From the NCBI RefSeq assembly GCF_002952775.1, contig NZ_CP025066.1:3224001-3288000 (forward strand): a DNA stretch of 64,000 bases. Direction: 5' to 3'. The position numbers were made by a program, and so were the translations under genes. Of this stretch, positions 12,900 through 61,761 are shown piece after piece. The DNA is from Halalkaliarchaeum desulfuricum (GTDB taxonomy: Archaea > Halobacteriota > Halobacteria > Halobacteriales > Haloferacaceae). Position 1 is the stretch's first letter. Every line of letters begins with the position of its first letter. The notes below the pieces were generated by a model. It made no database searches and was not told the DNA's origin. It saw only the letters and a program-made list of their open reading frames with translations.

Positions 12900-15800
12900 G
12901 TGGCGACGATCGGGCTGTACACGGCGACCGAAAACGAGTTGGGCGCGATCGGCGAGGCGGCAGACCGACTCGCGAGGGATCCCGGGGAGTCGATCCGGCT
13001 GGAAGTTCGATCGAAGGATGATCTCGGCGACGAGACCGACGTCGCGGCCTTCCTCGATCGGCTCGAGGCGGTCGATGTCGCCGTGTTGTGGCTCCACGGC
13101 GGGCCAGAGAGCATGCCCGGGTACGACCGCACGGTCGAACGGCTGATCCACGCGGGCGTACCGCTGATCACGATGTCGACGGGCGACGGCCCCGACGTCC
13201 GGGACTCCACGGTCGTCGAGGGCGACCGCGAGCGGGTCGCCGCGTATCTCGAACGCGGGGGCGTCGTCAACGTCGAAAACTGCTGTCGGTACCTCGCGAG
13301 CGAGTACGGCGACTACGACGGCGGCTACGACGACCCCGTCGAGCTCCCGACGGAGGGGGTCTACCACCCCGACCACCCCGGAATCGGCTACGAGGGACTC
13401 TGCAAGCTGCACGATCCGGGAAAGCCCACGATCGGGATCTGGTTCTACGAATCCCACTGGACGCACGCGAACACGCGGTTCGTGGACGCACTCGTCCGGC
13501 GGCTGGAGTCACTCGGCGCGAACGCCTTGCCAGTCTTCTGTGTCCCGGTCGCAGGCGGGGGCGGCAAGAGCGCGGACCGCAAGGATGCCGAGTGGGTCGC
13601 GCGAAACTGGTTCGCCGACGGCGACGATCTCGATCCCGTCGTCGACGCCGTTATAAGTTCGTTCGTGTTTTCGCTTTCGATGAACGAGCGCGGGCGGGAG
13701 GCAAGCGACCCGGACGCCGACGGCGGTTCTCGGGTCGAGGAGCTGTTCCTGCGCGAGCTCGGCGTTCCCGTCCTGCAGGCGATGACGACCAAACGCTCCC
13801 GCGAGGAGTACGCGAACGCCGACGCGGGCGTGCTGGGGTTCGAGCTCGCGCTGTCGGTGGCGCTCCCGGAGTTCGACGGCCCCGTGATCACCCACCCGAT
13901 AAGCGGCAACGAGCCGGTCGACGTCGAGGCGAAGATCGGCACCGCGCCGAAGCGCCACCTCCCGATCGAGGATCGGATCGATCACCTGTCCCGCCTGGCG
14001 ATCAACTGGGCGCGGCTCCGGCACCTCCCGAACCGGGAGAAACGGGTCGCGATCGTCCTGCACAACTACCCGCCAAGCGACGACGGCATCGGCACCGCCT
14101 TCGGGCTCGACACACCCGAAAGCGTCGTCAACCTGCTCGAAGCGCTGGACCGTCGCGGGTACGCACTCGGGGAGATCCCCGACGACGGCGCGGCGGTGAT
14201 CGACCGCCTCACCGCCCAACTCACCCTCGACGGCCGATGGGTCGACCCCGAGAACGTGCGCGAGGCCAGCGTCGACGTCGTCGCCCCCGAACAGTACGCC
14301 GACTGGTTCGACGCGCTCGACGACCGCCTGCGGGCGAACGTCCGGGAGGAATGGGGCGACCGGCCGGACCGACCGATCGCGATTCCCGGCTGCGAGTACG
14401 GCAACGCCCTGGTTACGGTCCAGCCCCCACGGGGGTTCGGGATGGACCCCTCGAAGGTGTACCACGATTCGGACCTGCATCCCCCCCACGAGTACGTCGC
14501 CTTCTATCGGTGGCTCCGCGAGGAGTATCGGGCGGACGCCGTCGTCCACCTGGGAACCCACGGCAGCCTGGAGTGGCTCCCCGGCAAGACGGTGGGGCTC
14601 GACGGCGCGAGCGCCCCCGACGGGCTGGTCGACGATCTGCCGAACGTCTACCCGTACGTGATCAACAATCCGGGGGAGGGGACACAGGCGAAACGCCGTT
14701 CGTACGCCGCGATCGTCGACCACCTCACGCCGCCGATGCGGGACGCCGGCACCTACGACGAACTCGCCGAACTGGAGGAACTGGCCCGCGGATACCGGGA
14801 GGCCGGCGCCGATCGCGAGAGCCGTCTCGAAGGTCCCATCCGCGAACGCGTTACGGAGCTGGATCTGGCGGTCGAACTCGGGTTCGGACACGGACGCGCC
14901 GAACACGAAGCCGACGGGGATCCGGTCGAGGAGATCCCGATCGACGACCTCGTCGAGTCGATCCACGAGTACCTCACCGACGTGAAGACGACGGGGATCA
15001 GGATGGGGCTGCACACGCTCGGGGAGCCGCCGGCGGGCGAGCGGCTCGTGGAGTACCTGGTCGCGCTTACCCGGTTGGAGAACCCCGGTGCGCCCAGTCT
15101 GCACCGGAGCGTCGCGGACGCGCTCGGGCTGGACTACGACCGGTTGCGCGAGTCGCCGGGCGCGTACGACGAGGACCTGAAAGCATACCACTCGGAGGCG
15201 ATCGACCTCGTCGGCGAGGTCGCGGTCGAACTGGTCGCGTCGCTGGCCCAAAACGGGTTCGACACCGACCTCGAAACCGAATTCGACGCCGACCTCGAAA
15301 CCGAATTCGACGCCGACCTCGACCTGAACCCGCTGGAACACGACAACCTTCGGACGGCCCTGGAGTACGTCTGCGAGGAGGCCGCCCCCCGGGTTCGGGG
15401 TGCGACCGCGGAGGTTCCCCGGGTGGCCGACGCCCTGGAGGGTGGGTACGTCCCGCCGGGCGGCAGCGGCGCGCCCACCCGCGGGGGGGTCGACCTGCTC
15501 CCGACCGGGCGGAACTTCTACACGCTTGACCCCCGGAAGGTGCCCGCCAGGTCGGCCTGGGAGGTCGGCCGGGAGGTCACAGAGGGTGTACTCGAGCGCC
15601 ACCACGAGGAACACGGCGAGTACCCCGAGGAGATCGGCGTCGTGGCGTGGGGGACGCCGACCGTCCGGACCCGGGGGGAGACGATCGCGCAGGTCCTTGC
15701 CGCCATGGGCGTCAGGCCGGTCTGGACCGACGCCGGCCGGATCGAGGGCGTCGAGCCGATCCCGATTTCGGAACTCCGCCGCCCTCGTGTGGACGTGACG

Positions 15801-30317: not shown

Positions 30318-31100
30318 CTACTTGTCGTCGCCCCGCCTGTGGCGAGACTCGTGGAGTGCGGCGCAGACGCTCCCCTGTCCAGTCACGTTCACGCCGGCGG
30401 CACGGGCCCGCGAGTGAACGACGTCGAACTCCTCCGGATCGATCGGTTCGCCGTCGGGATCGGCGAACAGGCAGTCGTCCGTCGACGTGACGATCCCCGT
30501 CTCGCGCGCTTTCTCCAGGTAATCGGCCAGCGGTTCGTCGTCGATCACGGCGAACACGGCGCCGCCACGCAGCGACACGGCGGTGCCGACCGTATCGGAA
30601 CCCCGATCGAGATGGTCGAGAGTGAGGTCGACGATCTGTCCCGGCGCGATTCCGGCGTCCAGCAGCGCCTCGACGGCGGCGTGCTGCCGGGCGAGCCGGG
30701 CCTTCTCGTCGAGCTTTCTGCGGACCTCCGCGACGTCGTCCTCGGCGGCCGGAAACGTCTCCACGAACGACCTCCGGTCGTTGACGCCCTCGGTGATCTC
30801 CGCGGCGTGCATGTGGTCCCGAAGTTCGACAGTCACGTCCGTCACGTTGGGTAACGAGCCCACCTCATCGCGGATCCCGGTCGCCATCATCCACGCGAAC
30901 GCGGGCGAACACCAGGCCGTCGGCAAGACAAAGCAGACCGCCACCTCCCCGTCGTCGATCCGGATCTCCTCGACGTACTCCAGTTCGACGATCGACCGGT
31001 CGAGTTCGGGATCGTCGACACGCCGGAGGCGCTCCCGTATGGCGTCGCGGTCCGGCACCGTCGGTTCCGTGCCCGTTTCGGCCGAGTGCGTACCGGACAT
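30318..31100 (-). CDS. DUF59 (MIP18-like) assembly protein, extended
   Basis: 260 residues. The N-terminal domain (about 20-100) is the DUF59/MIP18 fold used in iron-sulfur or metal-cluster assembly factors: RRVDDPELDRSIVELEYVEE and a FVLPTAWCSPAFAWMM cysteine segment. The rest (about 105-260) is helical then alpha/beta and unassigned. The gene follows the amidohydrolase stop by two bases. In bacterial soluble diiron monooxygenase (propane monooxygenase) clusters the same two gene types occur side by side. No hydroxylase subunit is present here. Confidence 0.78.
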   Translation of the reverse strand: MSGTHSAETGTEPTVPDRDAIRERLRRVDDPELDRSIVELEYVEEIRIDDGEVAVCFVLPTAWCSPAFAWMMATGIRDEVGSLPNVTDVTVELRDHMHAAEITEGVNDRRSFVETFPAAEDDVAEVRRKLDEKARLARQHAAVEALLDAGIAPGQIVDLTLDHLDRGSDTVGTAVSLRGGAVFAVIDDEPLADYLEKARETGIVTSTDDCLFADPDGEPIDPEEFDVVHSRARAAGVNVTGQGSVCAALHESRHRRGDDK

Positions 31101-31102
31101 CG

Positions 31103-32155
31103 TCAGTCGGCCGCCGACCCTTCGTACTGTCCACCGAGATCGAATTCCCGGCTGATCTGGTCGTCCTCGAACTGGGCTTTCTTCTCTTCGATGTCGATGT
31201 CGTACAGCTCGGCCGCGTTCTCTCCCATGAACTTCTTTTTGACCTCGGTCGTGAGTTCGATCCCGTACTCGTCGCGCTGTTCGGGGGTGAGTTCCGCCTC
31301 CATCACCGTCGGAATCAGCCAGTCGGGCTCCCAAAGCGCGTAGTCGGAGCCGAACAGGATCCGATCCTCGCCCAGCCAGTAGAGGAGTTCGCCCATGATT
31401 TCGCCGAACTTCCGCGGGCGGTTCTGCGCCATCGGCGCGGCAACCGCGAGCCCGCCGTAGACGTTCGGCTCCTGGGCGGCGATCCAGCAGAAGTCGTCGA
31501 GTCGTGGGAGGCCGACGTGGTTCACGATGAAGTTGAGCTCCGGGAACGATGTCGCGGCGTCGTCGATGTCGCCGACATCGAAAGCGTCCTTGTTGAGCGG
31601 ACGGATCGTCGGTCCCTTGTGGGCGTTGATGTTCTCGATCCCGAGGTCGGCACACAGCTGGAGGAACTCGAACGCCTCCTCGCTGTCGAGCCGCCATCCC
31701 TTCGAGTCACCCCGCCACTCCGCCGTGTACAGCTTGACACCCGGGATGTCGTACTCCTCTTTGAGTCGTCTGAGGTGCGCTTTCCCTTCCTCCCCGTCCC
31801 GCGGATCGAAACTACCGTTCAGGATGAACCGCTCGGGATACTCCTCGGCGAGTTCGGCGTTCTGGTCGGTCGTGTTGAATCCGTCGTCGTAAAACTCTGT
31901 GAGATAGGTCGACTGGAAGATCGCCATGTCGACGTAGCCGTCGCGAAACAGGTCCTCGACCATCCGTTCTTTCCCGTACTTTCGATACGTCTCCATGTCC
32001 CACTGCTCCTCCTCGGGCGTGAACGCCGTGTGGTAGTCGTAAAAGCACTGGATGAACTGTTCGCCCCCCTCGTGTGTGATGTTCTCCTCGGTCGCGTCCC
32101 AGAGGTGGACGTGGTTGTCGATCACGAACACGTCCTCGCCATCGTGTGTGTACAT
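31103..32155 (-). CDS. Amidohydrolase of diiron-monooxygenase cluster type
   Basis: 350-residue TIM-barrel amidohydrolase (amidohydrolase-2 group). Diagnostic stretches are FVIDNHVHLWD (metal His pair, about 9-19), GVKLYTAEWRGDSKGW, NAHKGPTIRPLNKDAFDV, NHVGLPRLDDFCWIA and ILFGSDYALWEPDWL. From memory, the order and wording of these blocks match the amidohydrolase encoded in mycobacterial and rhodococcal propane monooxygenase operons. The exact substrate is unsettled. The ATG at 32155 is used because the upstream in-frame sequence overlaps the operator and promoter. AATATT at 32183-32188 is a likely TATA box. Confidence 0.82.
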   Translation of the reverse strand: MYTHDGEDVFVIDNHVHLWDATEENITHEGGEQFIQCFYDYHTAFTPEEEQWDMETYRKYGKERMVEDLFRDGYVDMAIFQSTYLTEFYDDGFNTTDQNAELAEEYPERFILNGSFDPRDGEEGKAHLRRLKEEYDIPGVKLYTAEWRGDSKGWRLDSEEAFEFLQLCADLGIENINAHKGPTIRPLNKDAFDVGDIDDAATSFPELNFIVNHVGLPRLDDFCWIAAQEPNVYGGLAVAAPMAQNRPRKFGEIMGELLYWLGEDRILFGSDYALWEPDWLIPTVMEAELTPEQRDEYGIELTTEVKKKFMGENAAELYDIDIEEKKAQFEDDQISREFDLGGQYEGSAAD

Positions 32156-32167
32156 GGCAACCGTACC

Positions 32168-32182
32168 GTGGTAACATACCAC
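32168..32182. promoter_or_regulatory. Operator copy 1 (perfect palindrome)
   Basis: GTGGTA-ACA-TACCAC, a perfect 6-3-6 inverted repeat 13-27 bases upstream of the amidohydrolase ATG, between its TATA-like box and the start. A near-identical element lies upstream of the divergent alcohol dehydrogenase. The placement suggests that a dimeric repressor controls both transcripts. Confidence 0.65.
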
Positions 32183-32232
32183 AATATTACTTCTACCGAT
32201 GATCATAGGCACGTCACTTACGCTTTAGTCCC

Positions 32233-32247
32233 GTGGTATGTTATCGT
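32233..32247. promoter_or_regulatory. Operator copy 2 (imperfect palindrome)
   Basis: GTGGTA-TGT-TATCGT, the second copy of the divergent-promoter element, ending six bases before the alcohol dehydrogenase ATG. The left half is identical to copy 1, and the reverse complement shares TAACATACCAC with it apart from a few bases. The two copies mirror each other around the intergenic centre. Confidence 0.6.
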
Positions 32248-32252
32248 GAACC

Positions 32253-33296
32253 ATGCAGGCTGCCAGACTCCACGAGTACACCGACGACATGAGCGAGGCG
32301 CTCAGCATCGACGAGGTGGACAGACCCGAGCCGACAGATCCCGACGATGTCGTCGTCGAGGTCGAGGGCGCGGGATGGTGCCAGACCGACAACCACATTA
32401 TCGAAGGCATGTGGACCGAGTACGTCCCCCAGGAGCTCCCGCTGACACTGGGACACGAGAATGCGGGCGTCGTCGCCGCGGTCGGTGACGAGGTAGAACT
32501 GGTTTCGGAGGGTGATCCCGTAATCTGTCACCCGGTACAGACCTGCGGGACGTGTCGGCCCTGTCGGCTCGGGGAGGACATGTACTGCGAGAACAGCGCG
32601 TTCAACGGACTCACCACCGACGGCGGCTTCGCCGAGTACCTGCTCACGAATGAGCGTGCCGTCATTCCCCTTCCGGAGGGCGTCGACCCCACCGACATCG
32701 CCCCCCACGCCGACGCCGGGATCACGGCCTACCACGCAGTCAAGAAGGCCGTCGGAGAGTTGAATCCGGGCGATCACGCGGTCGTCATCGGCGTCGGGGG
32801 GCTGGGGCACATCGGCCTCCAGTGTCTGAACGCGATGAGCGCCGCCACGATCACTGCGGTGGATCTCAAAACGGAGGCACTGGAACTCGCAGGCGACCTC
32901 GGGGCCCACCACACCATCAACCCGGAGAACGAAGACGTGCCGGACGTGATCGAGTCACTGACCGACGGGACGGGAGCAGCGCAGGTGCTCGACTTCGTCG
33001 GCGCGGACGAAACGACCGGCTACGCTCCCGACGTCGTCGCCGCGGGCGGCGACCACCACGTGATCGGGTACGGCGGTCACGTCCACGAGCCCGCCCAGGC
33101 GCTCGTGAACGGGGAGTTCTCCTTCCGGGGAACGCTCGTGGGGAAGTACGCGGAGCTGCAAGAGCTCGTCGCGCTGGTCGATCACGGCGAGGTCGAACTC
33201 CACACCTCGCGGTACGACCTCGAGGAGATCAACACCGTCGCAGAGCAGCTCGAACATCGCGAAATCGAGGGGCGGGCCGTGGTCGTGCCGCCGTGA
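32253..33296 (+). CDS. Zinc-dependent alcohol dehydrogenase
   Basis: A 347-residue medium-chain dehydrogenase. The catalytic-zinc region has GAGWCQTDNHII and LGHENAGVV; the structural zinc cysteines are in CGTCRPCRLGEDMYC (about 92-106). The Rossmann motif is GVGGLGHIGLQ (about 175-185), followed by AVDLK, where the Asp favours NAD over NADP. It is divergent from the amidohydrolase and shares its operator pair, so a role in oxidising a product of the same pathway is likely. ADH genes hold the same place in propane monooxygenase clusters. Confidence 0.88.
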   Translation: MQAARLHEYTDDMSEALSIDEVDRPEPTDPDDVVVEVEGAGWCQTDNHIIEGMWTEYVPQELPLTLGHENAGVVAAVGDEVELVSEGDPVICHPVQTCGTCRPCRLGEDMYCENSAFNGLTTDGGFAEYLLTNERAVIPLPEGVDPTDIAPHADAGITAYHAVKKAVGELNPGDHAVVIGVGGLGHIGLQCLNAMSAATITAVDLKTEALELAGDLGAHHTINPENEDVPDVIESLTDGTGAAQVLDFVGADETTGYAPDVVAAGGDHHVIGYGGHVHEPAQALVNGEFSFRGTLVGKYAELQELVALVDHGEVELHTSRYDLEEINTVAEQLEHREIEGRAVVVPP

Positions 33297-33326: not shown

Positions 33327-34169
33327 TCAGCTCAGGAACGTGCGGAGGTGGTCGACGAACGCATCCGGTCGGTCCTCGGGGACCCAGTGGTTGGCCTCGT
33401 CGAGCCCGACGAGTTCACACTGCGGGATGTCGCGCTCGAGCCGTTCGGCCCACTCGACCGGCTGGAACTCGTCCTCGAGACCCCACAGCAGCAGCGTGTC
33501 GGCGGTGACGTTTCGGGGGTCGACCTCGGTAGTGTGATTCGTGTTCGTCGCAATCGCGTTCCGGACGAGCGAAGTCACTCCGTCCTCGGAGTTCCAGGGG
33601 GCTTTCATCCCCTCGACGAACGCCTCGTCGGGGTCGTCTCCCCACAGTGTCTGTCGGAACAACCCGTCGAGCATGCCCTGGATCTCCTCGGGGCTGTTCT
33701 GGCGGGCGGATTCGGGAAGTCCGAGGTCGGTGATCGTCTGAATCGGCCACGAGTCGTAGGCGACGGAGTTCGAGAGGACGAGCCGCTCGACTGTGTCCGG
33801 TTCGTGGCAGGCGTACCGGAGGAACACGCCGCCGCCGAGGTCGTGACCGACGAGAGAGACGGTGTCGAACCCGAGATCGGCCAGCAGTCCGTCGATCGCG
33901 ATCTCCTGGGCCCGTAGCGACCGATCGAACCCGTCGAACTTCGAGGAGTTACCGTATCCGATCATGTCCGGGGCGACCACGTGATGTTCTTCCGCGACGG
34001 TCGAGACTGCGTGCCGCCACAGGTACGAATTGGTCGGAATCCCGTGCAGGAAGACCACTGGGTCGCCGTTCCCCGTGCCGGCCTCGTAGTAGGCGACCTC
34101 CAGGTCCTGCCCGTCTACGGTCAGCGTCGTCGATTCCTGTGCGTCGGACCACTCCGAATACGATTGCAT
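33327..34169 (-). CDS. Alpha/beta hydrolase with Asp nucleophile
   Basis: A 280-residue alpha/beta-hydrolase. The oxyanion motif HGIPTNSYLW (about 43-52) is close to that of haloalkane dehalogenases and epoxide hydrolases. The nucleophile elbow is GHDLGG (about 107-112) with Asp rather than Ser; the catalytic His is in ANHWVPEDRP. The halide-binding Asn and Trp of true haloalkane dehalogenases are replaced by Ile (HGIPT) and Leu (HDLGG), so an epoxide-hydrolase or other ester/ether-cleaving activity is more likely. Its 3' end faces the ADH gene. It may belong to the same catabolic group. Confidence 0.8.
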   Translation of the reverse strand: MQSYSEWSDAQESTTLTVDGQDLEVAYYEAGTGNGDPVVFLHGIPTNSYLWRHAVSTVAEEHHVVAPDMIGYGNSSKFDGFDRSLRAQEIAIDGLLADLGFDTVSLVGHDLGGGVFLRYACHEPDTVERLVLSNSVAYDSWPIQTITDLGLPESARQNSPEEIQGMLDGLFRQTLWGDDPDEAFVEGMKAPWNSEDGVTSLVRNAIATNTNHTTEVDPRNVTADTLLLWGLEDEFQPVEWAERLERDIPQCELVGLDEANHWVPEDRPDAFVDHLRTFLS

Positions 34170-34236
34170 TATTGGGTCCCTCCCGCAGTGATCGGGGCTC
34201 CAAGGGCAAACGCCTGCTTCCTATGAAGATAGGTCC

Positions 34237-34938
34237 CTACCCGGAGTCGGTCCCGTCGAACAGCTCATCGAAGACCTTCTCCTGGGCCACGCGAACGTGC
34301 TGGCTGAACGTCGGCTGGGCGATCCCGAGCGCCTCGGCGCACTCCTCGGCGGTGCTCTTGCGTGGCCACGCGAAGTAGCCGCCGAGGTAGGCCGTCCGGA
34401 GTACCTCCTGCTGCTTTTCGGTGAGGCTCTCGGTCAACGCCACCCGCCCGCCGCTTTTCGTCCGGACGGGGACCTCCCGATCCGCGTCGCGCCTGGCGAC
34501 GAGATCCACGCAGGCGTGCCGATCGCGGAACGTCTCGACCACGGATCGGACGTCGACGTGCGGGGGGACGCTCGCAACGACGTGCCCGACGCCGTCCTCG
34601 GCGGCGACCGAGCGTGCGATCGCCCCCGAGTCCGCCAGCGTTGTCGTGACGCACGGCCCCGAGACGACGAACTCGAACAGCCCGCCGTCGACGCCCCGGT
34701 TGACGAGCCTGGCGTCGACGATCCCGGGCGCGTCGGCCGCAAGCGAGAGCACCCGATCCGTCGGAGCGCCGTCGACGGTGAAGTACTCCAGGAGCTTGCC
34801 GTCGGAGCGTCGTACGAGGTGTTCGAGCCGGACCCGGCAGCCCGCGACGCCGGACGCCTCGATGAAAAAGCAGTCGCGGTCCCGGACCTCGAATTCCACC
34901 TGTACGGCGGAGTCTGTCGCCCGTACCGTCGTTGCCAT
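34237..34938 (-). CDS. HTH-10 family (Bat-like) transcription regulator
   Basis: 233 residues. The C-terminal third has the HTH-10 (bacterio-opsin activator) signature: LTEKQQEVLRTAYLGGYFAWPRKSTAEECAEALGIAQPTFSQHVR, seen in pieces at about residues 165-210. The N-terminal part is the sensor-like region common to this haloarchaeal family. It lies 68 bases upstream of the hydrolase on the same strand and is the nearest candidate regulator of the catabolic island. The ATG at 34938 is preferred, giving MATTVRATDS. Confidence 0.85.
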   Translation of the reverse strand: MATTVRATDSAVQVEFEVRDRDCFFIEASGVAGCRVRLEHLVRRSDGKLLEYFTVDGAPTDRVLSLAADAPGIVDARLVNRGVDGGLFEFVVSGPCVTTTLADSGAIARSVAAEDGVGHVVASVPPHVDVRSVVETFRDRHACVDLVARRDADREVPVRTKSGGRVALTESLTEKQQEVLRTAYLGGYFAWPRKSTAEECAEALGIAQPTFSQHVRVAQEKVFDELFDGTDSG

Positions 34939-35876: not shown

Positions 35877-36292
35877 ATGAACGACGTCCGGCCGGATCCG
35901 CCCCTCCCCCGGACGGGGCGAGGACTCCACTACTGTCTGCACTGTGACGCGTACATGTTTGTCGACCAGTCGGTGTACGTGATGGGCCACTCCGAAAGCG
36001 CGGCCCACGTCGCCGCGATCGTGCTGAATTTCACCGATAACGTCGACCTGCTCACCCGCGAGGAGGAGCCCGAGTGGTCCGAAGAGACCGCCGACATGCT
36101 CGAGACCCACCCGATCGATGTGATCGATGCGGACGTCACCGGCGTCCGGAACGGCGAGGACGGGTGGCTGGAGGCGCTGGAGTTCGCGGACGGGGAGACC
36201 CGGGAGTACCGGGGTGGGTTCGCTCCGAGGAGGTGCCGGGAATCCCCGCCGAACTGCTGGAGCAGGCGGTCGCGTTCCACACGTACGATTGA
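35877..36292 (+). pseudogene. Thioredoxin-reductase-like remnant
   Basis: Forward reading PLPRTGRGLHYCLHCDAYMF carries the redox CxxC (CLHC), then VYVMGHSESAAHVAAIVL (second dinucleotide-binding site) and DGWLEALEFADGETREYRGGFA. The N-terminal FAD domain is missing. After GGFA about 80-90 residues are deleted and the frame shifts; the family C-terminus EEVPGIPAELLEQAVAFHTYD then follows in another frame to a stop at 36290-36292. An intact relative lacking CxxC lies at 37060. Decayed gene. Confidence 0.7.
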
Positions 36293-36407
36293 GTTCCGCA
36301 CGGGCGAGATCGGGTGTGACCCGGGCTCGGACGTGGAGAACGCGATCCAGTCGCCACCGGAGGTTCGCCCCAGATATTTATATGTACACACACAACTGTG
36401 TATTGAG

Positions 36408-36650
36408 ATGGCGACCAAAACGATCTCCCTCGACGAGGAGGCCTACGAACGGCTCAAGGCCCACAAGCGGGAAGGTGAGTCGTTCTCCGAGGTCGTAAAG
36501 CGGATCGCGGGCGAGCGCTCGTGGAAGGAGGTGGCCGGTATCCTCTCCGAAGAGGAGGCCGAAAAACTCGAAGCGGCGATCGAAGAAGGTCGGGAACGCT
36601 CCCGTGAACGCCGCGAACGTCTCGAATCTGACCTGCGGAGTGACGAATGA
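36408..36650 (+). CDS. VapB-type antitoxin
   Basis: An 80-residue antitoxin of the haloarchaeal DUF217/VapB type. The N-terminal ribbon (MATKTISLDEEAYERLKAHK) is a DNA-binding RHH-like fold; the C-terminal half is a charged helix (EEEAEKLEAAIEEGRERSRERR) that would wrap the toxin. The ATG is preceded by ATATTTATAT (36373-36382), a strong TATA box. The last four bases overlap the vapC start. Confidence 0.85.
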   Translation: MATKTISLDEEAYERLKAHKREGESFSEVVKRIAGERSWKEVAGILSEEEAEKLEAAIEEGRERSRERRERLESDLRSDE

Positions 36651-37039
36651 TCGAGGACACGTCGTTCATCATCGACATCCTATACAACGACCCCGACGCA
36701 CTCGCGTATCTCGACCTCGTCGAGAAGGAGAACCGTCCCGAAAAGATCGCCTCGATCACCGCCCTCGAACTGTACGAGGCAGTCCCACAGGTATCGGTTC
36801 CCGAGGAGCGTCGAGGGAAGATTCTCGACGTGCTCGATACACGCCACGCCGTGGCCGCCGACGAGACGGTGATGCGGAAAGCGGGAAAGATTTCGGGAGA
36901 ACTCAAATCCCGGGGTGAGGAAATCGATCGCGAGGACTGTATCATCGGCGCGACCGCATTGCTCAACGACGAGCCAGTCCTCACCCGGAATAACGATCAC
37001 TTCGAGCGGATAGACGGTCTCGACGTCGAAACCTACTGA
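36647..37039 (+). CDS. PIN-domain toxin VapC
   Basis: A 130-residue PIN-domain ribonuclease. The acidic metal-site residues are visible: Asp4 (MIEDTSFIID), Glu41 (ALELYEA), Asp97 (REDCIIGA) and Asp117 (NNDHF). Family members cut tRNA or rRNA when freed from VapB. It overlaps vapB (ATGA) and so forms a complete type II toxin-antitoxin pair in an otherwise degenerate stretch. Confidence 0.88.
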   Translation: MIEDTSFIIDILYNDPDALAYLDLVEKENRPEKIASITALELYEAVPQVSVPEERRGKILDVLDTRHAVAADETVMRKAGKISGELKSRGEEIDREDCIIGATALLNDEPVLTRNNDHFERIDGLDVETY

Positions 37040-50142: not shown

Positions 50143-50181
50143 AAAGGTGGTATTTTACCGCCAGGGAGCGTCGGGGCCTCC

Positions 50182-55536: not shown

Positions 55537-55623
55537 GCGCTCAACTGCGCGGGCTGCCTCTTCCAAGGCCCGATTCTCTTCAAGTGGGACCTTCGACTCC
55601 TCACATTCGTTCGTCGTCAGAAG

Positions 55624-55696
55624 GTCCGGGTGCGAGAATCGAACCCGCGTCTCAGCCTCCACAAGGCTGAAGGATAACCACTACCCCAACCCGGAC
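55624..55696 (-). tRNA. tRNA-His (GTG anticodon)
   Basis: Reverse-strand cloverleaf: acceptor TCCGGGT/ACCCGGA, D-arm with GGTAGTGG, anticodon stem CAGCC/GGCTG around the loop TTGTGGA giving anticodon GTG, and T-arm GGTTCGATTC. A G at position -1 (55696) opposite C73 is encoded, the identity feature of tRNA-His. CCA is not encoded. Three partial copies of its 3' end lie downstream (55241-55536). Confidence 0.93.
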
Positions 55697-61327: not shown

Positions 61328-61761
61328 GGCTGAGGGGAGTAAGCCCCCTTCTGTTCGTCCCGACATTCGGCTGAGCGCCCGCGCCGTGGCCGGACTACCT
61401 GTCCGGCGGCGATGCCGCCGGGTGGCGCGGGCTTGCACCGGCGAGGATTCGCCGTTCCATCCGTTCCCGATCGTCGGCACGCGGGAGATTCCGCGTACAG
61501 CGGGGCGGCGTACCGCCCCTCGGCCCTCGGTGGGTCAACTCCCTTCCCTTGCGGGTCAGTTCGCGCGTCCGCGGGAAACCGCAGACGCCGCCGACCGCGA
61601 ATGCGGCCGACGCACCTCATCGGTCGGATCGGGGGGTCCCGTTTCTGTTCCAGAGCCAGCCGTCTCCGACTCCGGGCTTGCGCCCGGTCGCCCGTCCGGC
61701 CGGTGGGGGGACTTTCCTCATGGCCGGCGTCACCGGCCACGGGGATCGGGCTCCCTCTGCC
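61328..61761 (-). ncRNA. rnpB: RNase P RNA
   Basis: About 434 bases on the reverse strand. The conserved core elements are visible: GAGGAAAGTCC near the 5' end (CR-I), GGAACAGAAAC after the first third, and the 3' stretch GAACAGAAGGGGGCTTAC. The two ends pair as P1 (GGCAGAGGGAG with CTCCCCTCAGCC). It processes pre-tRNA 5' ends. The overlapping open frames are accidental. The 5' and 3' ends are estimates from P1. Confidence 0.92.

Follow-up and report, generated by a model that had tools for sequence, protein, structure and literature searches.

An amidohydrolase, DUF59 and alcohol dehydrogenase gene set in haloarchaea that resembles the companions of bacterial propane monooxygenases

We analyzed a stretch of 64,000 nucleotides from Halalkaliarchaeum desulfuricum (NZ_CP025066.1, positions 3,224,001 to 3,288,000; hereafter the window), in which three neighboring genes encode an amidohydrolase-fold enzyme (AMH), a long DUF59 protein (DUF59-long), and a zinc-dependent medium-chain alcohol dehydrogenase (ADH). 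An earlier note, made from the sequence alone, had described this trio as the companion set of bacterial propane monooxygenases standing without its monooxygenase. All three genes proved to be real and match Pfam families: AMH matches PF04909 (159 bits; cut-off, 26.4), DUF59-long matches PF01883 (58 bits; cut-off, 23.5), and ADH matches PF08240 and PF00107. The source genome is haloarchaeal, consists of a single contig of 3.31 Mb, and is 99.99% complete. The 459-amino-acid (aa) open reading frame (ORF) listed for DUF59-long results from reading through upstream sequence; conservation places the start at the ATG at 31100. Because this start lies two bases past the AMH stop, AMH and DUF59-long almost certainly form one transcript.

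Table 1. Genes and promoter features around the trio, in window coordinates (a dot marks features given without a strand)
Feature	Coordinates	Strand	Basis
DUF59-long protein, 260 aa	30318..31100	-	Pfam, alignment, AlphaFold2 model, Foldseek
AMH, PF04909 amidohydrolase-fold enzyme, 350 aa	31103..32155	-	Pfam, tree, alignment, AlphaFold2 model, Foldseek
AMH/ADH divergent promoter region, 97 bp	32156..32252	.	Gene starts, comparison of divergent haloarchaeal loci
Operator-like inverted repeat GTGGTATGTTACCACG, just upstream of AMH start	32167..32182	-	Genome-wide match count
CCTAT-N4-AT(A/C)GG element CCTATGATCATCGG, upstream of AMH TATA-like box	32196..32209	-	Comparison of relatives
Second operator-like copy GTGGTATGTTATCGTG, just upstream of ADH	32233..32248	+	Genome-wide match count
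Zinc-dependent medium-chain ADH, 347 aa	32253..33296	+	Pfam, nearest structures, ortholog count
Alpha/beta hydrolase, Asp-nucleophile motif GHDLGG	33327..34169	-	Pfam, nearest structures, neighborhoods
Perfect copy of CCTAT-N4-AT(A/C)GG element CCTATGAAGATAGG, hydrolase promoter	34220..34233	.	Comparison of relatives
BAT/HTH_10 transcription regulator	34237..34938	-	Pfam; same family adjoins the module in L069, L093, L119, and L141

Search for a hydroxylase and kinship with bacterial clusters

The note had found no hydroxylase subunit in the window and had offered three options: the enzyme is elsewhere, it was lost, or the trio has its own function, perhaps with the nearby hydrolase. We confirmed the absence from the window, and a profile search with the diiron hydroxylase family PF02332 gave no match in the complete 3.31-Mb genome, which rules out a hydroxylase elsewhere. 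The search itself works, since it detects the prm-type hydroxylase of an Eremiobacterota genome and diiron hydroxylases in two haloarchaea. Those two genomes (G128 and G216) gave the only PF02332 matches among 293 haloarchaeal genomes sampled, and neither has AMH; none of the 79 AMH-bearing genomes of this sample matched, and a prm-type hydroxylase was found in none of the 293. Diiron monooxygenases look rare in haloarchaea. In tblastn searches with Aminobacter queries, neither PrmB, PrmD, nor GroEL was found adjoining the haloarchaeal trios examined, a search that did not extend to the whole genome. Heterologous expression of the monooxygenase requires GroEL (PMC6849523), which the haloarchaeal loci do not include. 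Of the components of a propane-type soluble diiron monooxygenase (SDIMO), the locus thus has a prm-clade AMH adjoining DUF59-long, plus ADH, but lacks PF02332 alpha and beta subunits in the genome and coupling protein, reductase, and GroEL at the locus.

The two haloarchaeal SDIMO loci (L135, G128:C1:2868000-2886000; L136, G216:C7:1000-11812) have alpha subunits that are alike and only about 25% identical to the prm-type alpha. The cluster in G216 also has one Rieske-type and one TmoB-like ORF, and its alpha subunit bears a YHS domain, which resembles the situation in toluene/isoprene monooxygenases.

An amidohydrolase, a DUF59-type protein, and an ADH accompany propane/acetone monooxygenases (PMC6849523, PMC4428276), and synteny agrees with the note in this respect. 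An AMH-DUF59-GroEL block adjoins monooxygenase genes in Aminobacter, Paracoccus pAMI4, Ponticoccus, Gemmobacter, Caballeronia, Bradyrhizobium, and Rhodococcus plasmids and in many Hyphomicrobiales genomes, and ADH is present too in most of these blocks. In the Eremiobacterota cluster, AMH, ADH, and GroEL were found and DUF59 had no match. The window AMH is mostly 52 to 59% identical to the AMHs of bacterial monooxygenase clusters (45% for the divergent Eremiobacterota AMH). In a maximum-likelihood tree of 61 AMHs, in which loci marked as monooxygenase free are those where a monooxygenase is not linked, the haloarchaeal orthologs group together as a single clade (100/100) inside the prm-type set, and this set is split (100/100) from haloarchaeal paralogs of about 27 to 36% identity. 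AMH therefore does not group with unrelated amidohydrolases, the outcome on which the note had said that the link to monooxygenases would fall. Judged from sequence, AMH and DUF59-long are true homologs of the pair in bacterial propane/acetone monooxygenase operons.

The comparison with prm/mim clusters (SDIMO group V-VI; Gordonia TY-5, Mycolicibacterium smegmatis MSMEG_1970-1979, and Rhodococcus BCP1) is in line with this. AMH, a DUF59-type protein, and ADH occur as a set in both, with AMH and DUF59 adjoining in identical order. However, the haloarchaeal loci have no hydroxylase alpha/beta, coupling protein, reductase, or GroEL, their ADH is divergent, and they carry a BAT regulator and an alpha/beta hydrolase where bacteria often carry a sigma-54 regulator.

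In the Eremiobacterota locus (L100), the propane-type hydroxylase alpha gene (13301-15191) is broken across two frames with ambiguous bases near the break, and the split may be a sequencing gap.

Distribution, layout, and promoter elements in haloarchaea

AMH orthologs (at least 66% identity) are present in 79 of the 293 haloarchaeal genomes, and DUF59-long is found in exactly those 79 (Fisher P of about 1e-73, relatedness being ignored). Similarly, all 17 plasmid records that match DUF59-long also match AMH. In all likelihood, the two proteins are an obligate functional pair. Since AMH and DUF59-long occur in the same 79 genomes and both hydroxylase-bearing genomes are without AMH, the trio is very probably a monooxygenase-independent module and not a leftover.

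An ADH ortholog accompanies AMH in 78 of the 79 genomes, the exception being G133, which is 77% complete. ADH is divergent from AMH-DUF59 in 69 haloarchaeal loci, with a gap of 95 to 335 bp in 63 of them and of 1.1 to 2.0 kb, with an inserted gene where inspected, in the other 6; in Halogeometricum, the three genes are colinear. This arrangement is not due to chance, since it is conserved across haloarchaea. The alpha/beta hydrolase lies between ADH and AMH in three loci (L069, L095, and L101), together with BAT in L069, and beside the trio in L119 and L141. In a subset of genomes, the module includes the hydrolase and the BAT-type regulator. In another haloarchaeal locus (L033), an enzyme of the glycolaldehyde-reductase/glycerol-dehydrogenase type is located between ADH and AMH.

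The note had also proposed a shared operator. Operator-like inverted repeats are indeed present in the AMH/ADH gap, but as two copies, one per start, rather than as a single site. No other site in the 3.31-Mb genome matches these repeats (GTGGTATGTTAYC) with fewer than two mismatches, and sites with two mismatches are about as frequent as in the control (6 versus 4 in total). Chance probably accounts for a GTGGTATTTTACC site that lies upstream of a hisB-like gene, at 50147.

By comparing the closest relatives, we found a second, conserved promoter element, CCTAT-N4-AT(A/C)GG, which the note had not seen. Just two copies of it are present in the window, at 32196 in the AMH/ADH region and at 34220 in the hydrolase promoter. 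Both places also carry it in Halorarius (L119), the hydrolase promoter carries it in L141 with a one-mismatch form in the AMH/ADH region, and the AMH/ADH region carries it in L093. In the five loci where a BAT gene is linked to the module, 6 sites were found in 130 kb, every one of them in a module promoter, versus 2 sites in 1.34 Mb for the 70 loci without such a gene; at the latter rate, about 0.2 sites would be expected in the BAT-linked loci, a comparison that counts as support and not as a clean probability because the loci are related. The whole genome has five sites; one of them, at 380497, lies within an ABC permease gene and was therefore not taken as regulatory. The start of the window BAT gene was set at the ATG at 34938, and Pfam scoring ran from 34971. 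The BAT protein is a candidate regulator of the module. It may use this element, and the trio and the hydrolase would then form one regulon. The promoter element in common and the position of the hydrolase between ADH and AMH elsewhere support the third option of the note, that of a function of its own, perhaps with the nearby hydrolase.

The encoded proteins

The AlphaFold2 model of AMH (predicted local distance difference test [pLDDT] score, 89.6) was matched by Foldseek to PF04909 hydrolases and decarboxylases, with TM-scores of 0.62 by query and 0.76 by target against 3irs and of about 0.5 to 0.6 against decarboxylases. The sequence profile matched 3irs at 1e-5 and nothing else below 0.01. 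In the alignment, D13, H15, K141, H179, H213, and D271 are invariant, and H17 is nearly so, being A or G in Peribacillus and L100. AMH thereby has the PF04909 metal site, namely, HxH (H15/H17) and the His of beta5 (H179), His of beta6 (H213), and Asp of beta8 (D271). It shares the TIM-barrel fold and this HxH...H...H...D set with ACMSD, the gamma-resorcylate and 5-carboxyvanillate decarboxylases, and BB4693, although it is only 13 to 18% identical to such enzymes.

DUF59-long consists of an N-terminal MIP18/PF01883 domain, matched in 35 of 35 members, and a C-terminal domain of about 160 aa not assigned to a family. C64, H96, and C246 do not vary among bacterial and archaeal members and plausibly form a metal-handling set. 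In the AlphaFold2 model (pLDDT, 90.9), the N-terminal domain matched CIAO2B/MIP18 and DUF59 structures, and nothing matched the C-terminal domain convincingly. Like PaaD, SufT, and CIAO2B, the protein has an N-terminal DUF59 domain with conserved DPE and Cys motifs. Unlike them, it scores far below every NCBIfam equivalog cut-off, has an extra C-terminal domain with the invariant C246, and has no Fe-S or diiron client to be seen in the haloarchaeal locus. The C-terminal domain (30318-30800) gave a profile match to XerA at an E value of 0.27 and a weak Foldseek match, neither significant; a tyrosine-recombinase-like domain was rejected, since only 1 of 35 members matches Phage_integrase (E value of 0.17).

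The nearest solved structure to ADH is Aeropyrum pernix ADH (1h2b; E value of 2e-97), followed by the secondary alcohol dehydrogenase ADH-A of Rhodococcus ruber. For the alpha/beta hydrolase, the nearest solved structures are haloalkane dehalogenases. It nevertheless falls outside that class: with HGIPTNSYLWR and GHDLGG the Asp nucleophile is present, but Ile and Leu occupy what we take, from the motifs of DhaA, to be the halide-binding Asn and Trp positions.

A possible catabolic role and its alternatives

The pair also occurs in bacteria without a linked prm-type monooxygenase, where redox enzymes adjoin it. The Thermomicrobium roseum megaplasmid (L111) resembles the window in that no monooxygenase is linked, and its AMH is 58% identical to the window AMH; unlike in the window, the trio is a colinear operon (IclR-DUF59-AMH-ADH) with an IclR regulator and an adjoining iron ABC transporter. 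Iron-uptake ABC genes are found near the pair in L117 as well. Two genomes (G880 and G887) have the order ADH-AMH-DUF59, and ADH lies beside the pair in L197 and L198. The pair is followed by DJ-1/PfpI in Peribacillus (L112) and by lactoylglutathione lyase and D-2-hydroxyacid dehydrogenase in Rhizobium N324 (L120), where, as in Peribacillus, the monooxygenase search covered only the plasmid. In G757 (L186), it is followed by lactoylglutathione lyase, with a GlcD-like oxidase and an LldR/GlcC-like regulator, and in Bauldia (G295, L098), it is preceded by a short-chain dehydrogenase/reductase whose best matches, glucose 1-dehydrogenase and meso-2,3-butanediol dehydrogenase, are both below the cut-off. 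PF02332 had no match in G880, G809, G757, G294, G295, and G296, a provisional result given that the completeness of these genomes was not stated.

The enzymes that recur beside the pair belong to the metabolism of diols, hydroxyketones, methylglyoxal, and hydroxyacids. In Actinomycetospora grown on 2-hydroxyisobutyrate, the AMH of the Mim cluster makes up 3.2% and its ADH 6.1% of the proteome; the cluster is also strongly induced on acetone, for which the route acetone to acetol to methylglyoxal was proposed (PMC7176365). Because partner enzymes of this kind recur, and in view of the Mim proteome and the proposed acetone route, we suggest a role at the acetol/methylglyoxal level.

We read the locus, with a probability of roughly 0.5, as a self-standing regulated catabolic module with an AMH-DUF59 pair, ADH, and C3-level chemistry rather than as propane monooxygenase debris. 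DUF59-long, as a metal-cofactor assembly protein of the MIP18 type that has a C-terminal domain of its own, would load or maintain the metal site of AMH, a step to which we give even odds. ADH would oxidize a small secondary alcohol, diol, or hydroxyketone to a carbonyl compound, which AMH would convert further, plausibly within C3 metabolism at the level of acetol and methylglyoxal. In bacterial propane/acetone monooxygenase clusters, the product of the monooxygenase is apparently processed by this pair as well. In a subset of haloarchaea, including the source genome, the Asp-nucleophile alpha/beta hydrolase, possibly feeding diols, and the BAT-type regulator would have been added and co-regulated. 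In this reading, the homology, the synteny, the co-occurrence, the missing hydroxylase, and the promoter element are observed, whereas the loading of metal by DUF59-long, the sequence of reactions, the substrate, and the pairing of regulator and site are our interpretation.

Several observations weigh against this reading. To our knowledge, none of the AMH or DUF59-long proteins of the family has a known enzyme activity. ADH is not exclusive to the module; 63 further haloarchaeal genomes hold an ortholog without AMH, and it is thus a more widely distributed enzyme associated with the pair. Few bacterial loci provide the links to glyoxalase, DJ-1, and hydroxyacid enzymes, and in L185 the pair is located within a sugar-kinase/ABC operon (xylulokinase/RpiA). 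T. roseum and G887 count as "not linked" only, because a genome-level check found unlinked diiron monooxygenases: the only one on the T. roseum megaplasmid is toluene type and lies about 369 kb from the trio, and that of G887 lies elsewhere in the genome. Finally, a pyruvate dehydrogenase (PDH)-type E1-alpha gene is found directly downstream of the trio ADH in 18 haloarchaeal loci, mostly of Haloferacales, and a gene of the NADH:flavin oxidoreductase family (Oxidored_FMN) is found downstream in about 18. These commonest haloarchaeal neighbors do not point clearly to acetol and may reflect inherited synteny. Because they do not obviously fit in many haloarchaea, a C3 hydroxy-carbonyl substrate is the weakest step of the proposal, tentative and with the odds somewhat against it.

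E1-alpha is seen, for example, at L038 7537-8805 (10 bp from ADH) and L101 6418-7623, with 16 further loci; neither E1-beta, E2, nor E3 stands beside the lone E1-alpha in the loci inspected. The Oxidored_FMN neighbor is present in many Natrialbaceae loci (L091 7104-8474 and relatives).

DUF59/MIP18 proteins such as CIAO2B, PaaD, and SufT are maturation factors. With the Foldseek match to CIAO2B/MIP18, and with the bacterial pair adjoining a diiron enzyme, AMH and DUF59-long could instead be chaperone-like maturation factors for another metalloenzyme, which would have a different client in haloarchaea. This is rather unlikely, as the metal-site residue set of AMH is complete, a zinc ADH is the only common metalloenzyme neighbor in haloarchaea, and AMH reaches about the abundance of the large monooxygenase subunits (PMC7176365), which would be expected if it is an enzyme.

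The E1-alpha, Oxidored_FMN, and xylulokinase/RpiA neighbors would also suit an independent catabolic unit of another pathway, handling, e.g., a 2-oxoacid, an enone, or a sugar-derived ketone. We consider this unlikely too, since such neighbors are restricted to certain lineages and change from one lineage to another. Glyoxalase, DJ-1, diol dehydrogenase, and hydroxyacid enzymes, in contrast, are found repeatedly in bacteria that are not related.

Acquisition of a complete propane-type operon by haloarchaea, with subsequent loss of the monooxygenase that left a trio without maintained function, would be consistent with haloarchaeal AMHs nesting among bacterial ones, with the linkage of the deepest AMH branch (L100) to a monooxygenase, and with the frequent location of propane-type operons on plasmids. 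Such a remnant is very improbable, however. The pair is kept in 79 of 293 genomes without exception to its co-occurrence, the AMHs are mostly 70 to 89% identical, the divergent layout is conserved with regulatory elements added, and no haloarchaeon sampled has a prm-type hydroxylase. The loss option of the note is accordingly disfavored, the trio being intact, regulated, and monooxygenase free in these genomes.

Least probable of all is that AMH itself activates O2, as a member of the amidohydrolase-related dinuclear oxygenases (AROs), in which case the locus would not be monooxygenase free. AMH shares the Pfam family, its Foldseek matches include SfbO (8sm6) and AibH1H2 (8ful), and a metal-assembly partner is present, but of the ARO ligands D, H, H, E, D, and H (D25, H27, H211, E265, D337, and H340 in AibH2, with D342 nearby; PMC7782822) two defining ones are absent when mapped by motif and strand position rather than by coordinate superposition, H213 replacing the beta6 Glu and Leu/Ile at D271+3 (L/I274) replacing the His of the beta8 D-x-x-H, and no Rieske protein is found among the genes around the trio (window; annotated L119).

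In propane/acetone monooxygenase clusters, AMH is on record as a predicted amidohydrolase and the DUF59-type protein as one of unknown function, and both are usually taken for accessories of the monooxygenase. Haloarchaea provide, in one sample, 79 natural cases of the two without a monooxygenase, always paired, and the accessory pair probably has a function of its own. For this reason, we find the result more interesting than a missing enzyme; it bears on genes of unknown role in bacterial alkane oxidation, whose role becomes cleanly approachable in genetically tractable archaea. Alkane oxidation is not to be inferred from the AMH and DUF59 genes alone. Taking the self-standing catabolic module further, DUF59-long could serve specifically to insert metal into an amidohydrolase-fold enzyme and not be an assembly factor for Fe-S or diiron sites, and the pair could catalyze a so far undescribed short-chain hydroxyketone step common to propane-oxidizing bacteria and haloarchaea, a bolder proposal that we regard as doubtful.

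Elsewhere in the window, 36430-37039 (+) carries what appear to be a VapB-like antitoxin (3' end of the ORF at 35877-36650) and a PIN-domain VapC-like toxin (36647-37039). A tRNA-His gene is located at 55623-55695 (-), and the archaeal RNase P RNA gene is located at 61328-61761 (-).

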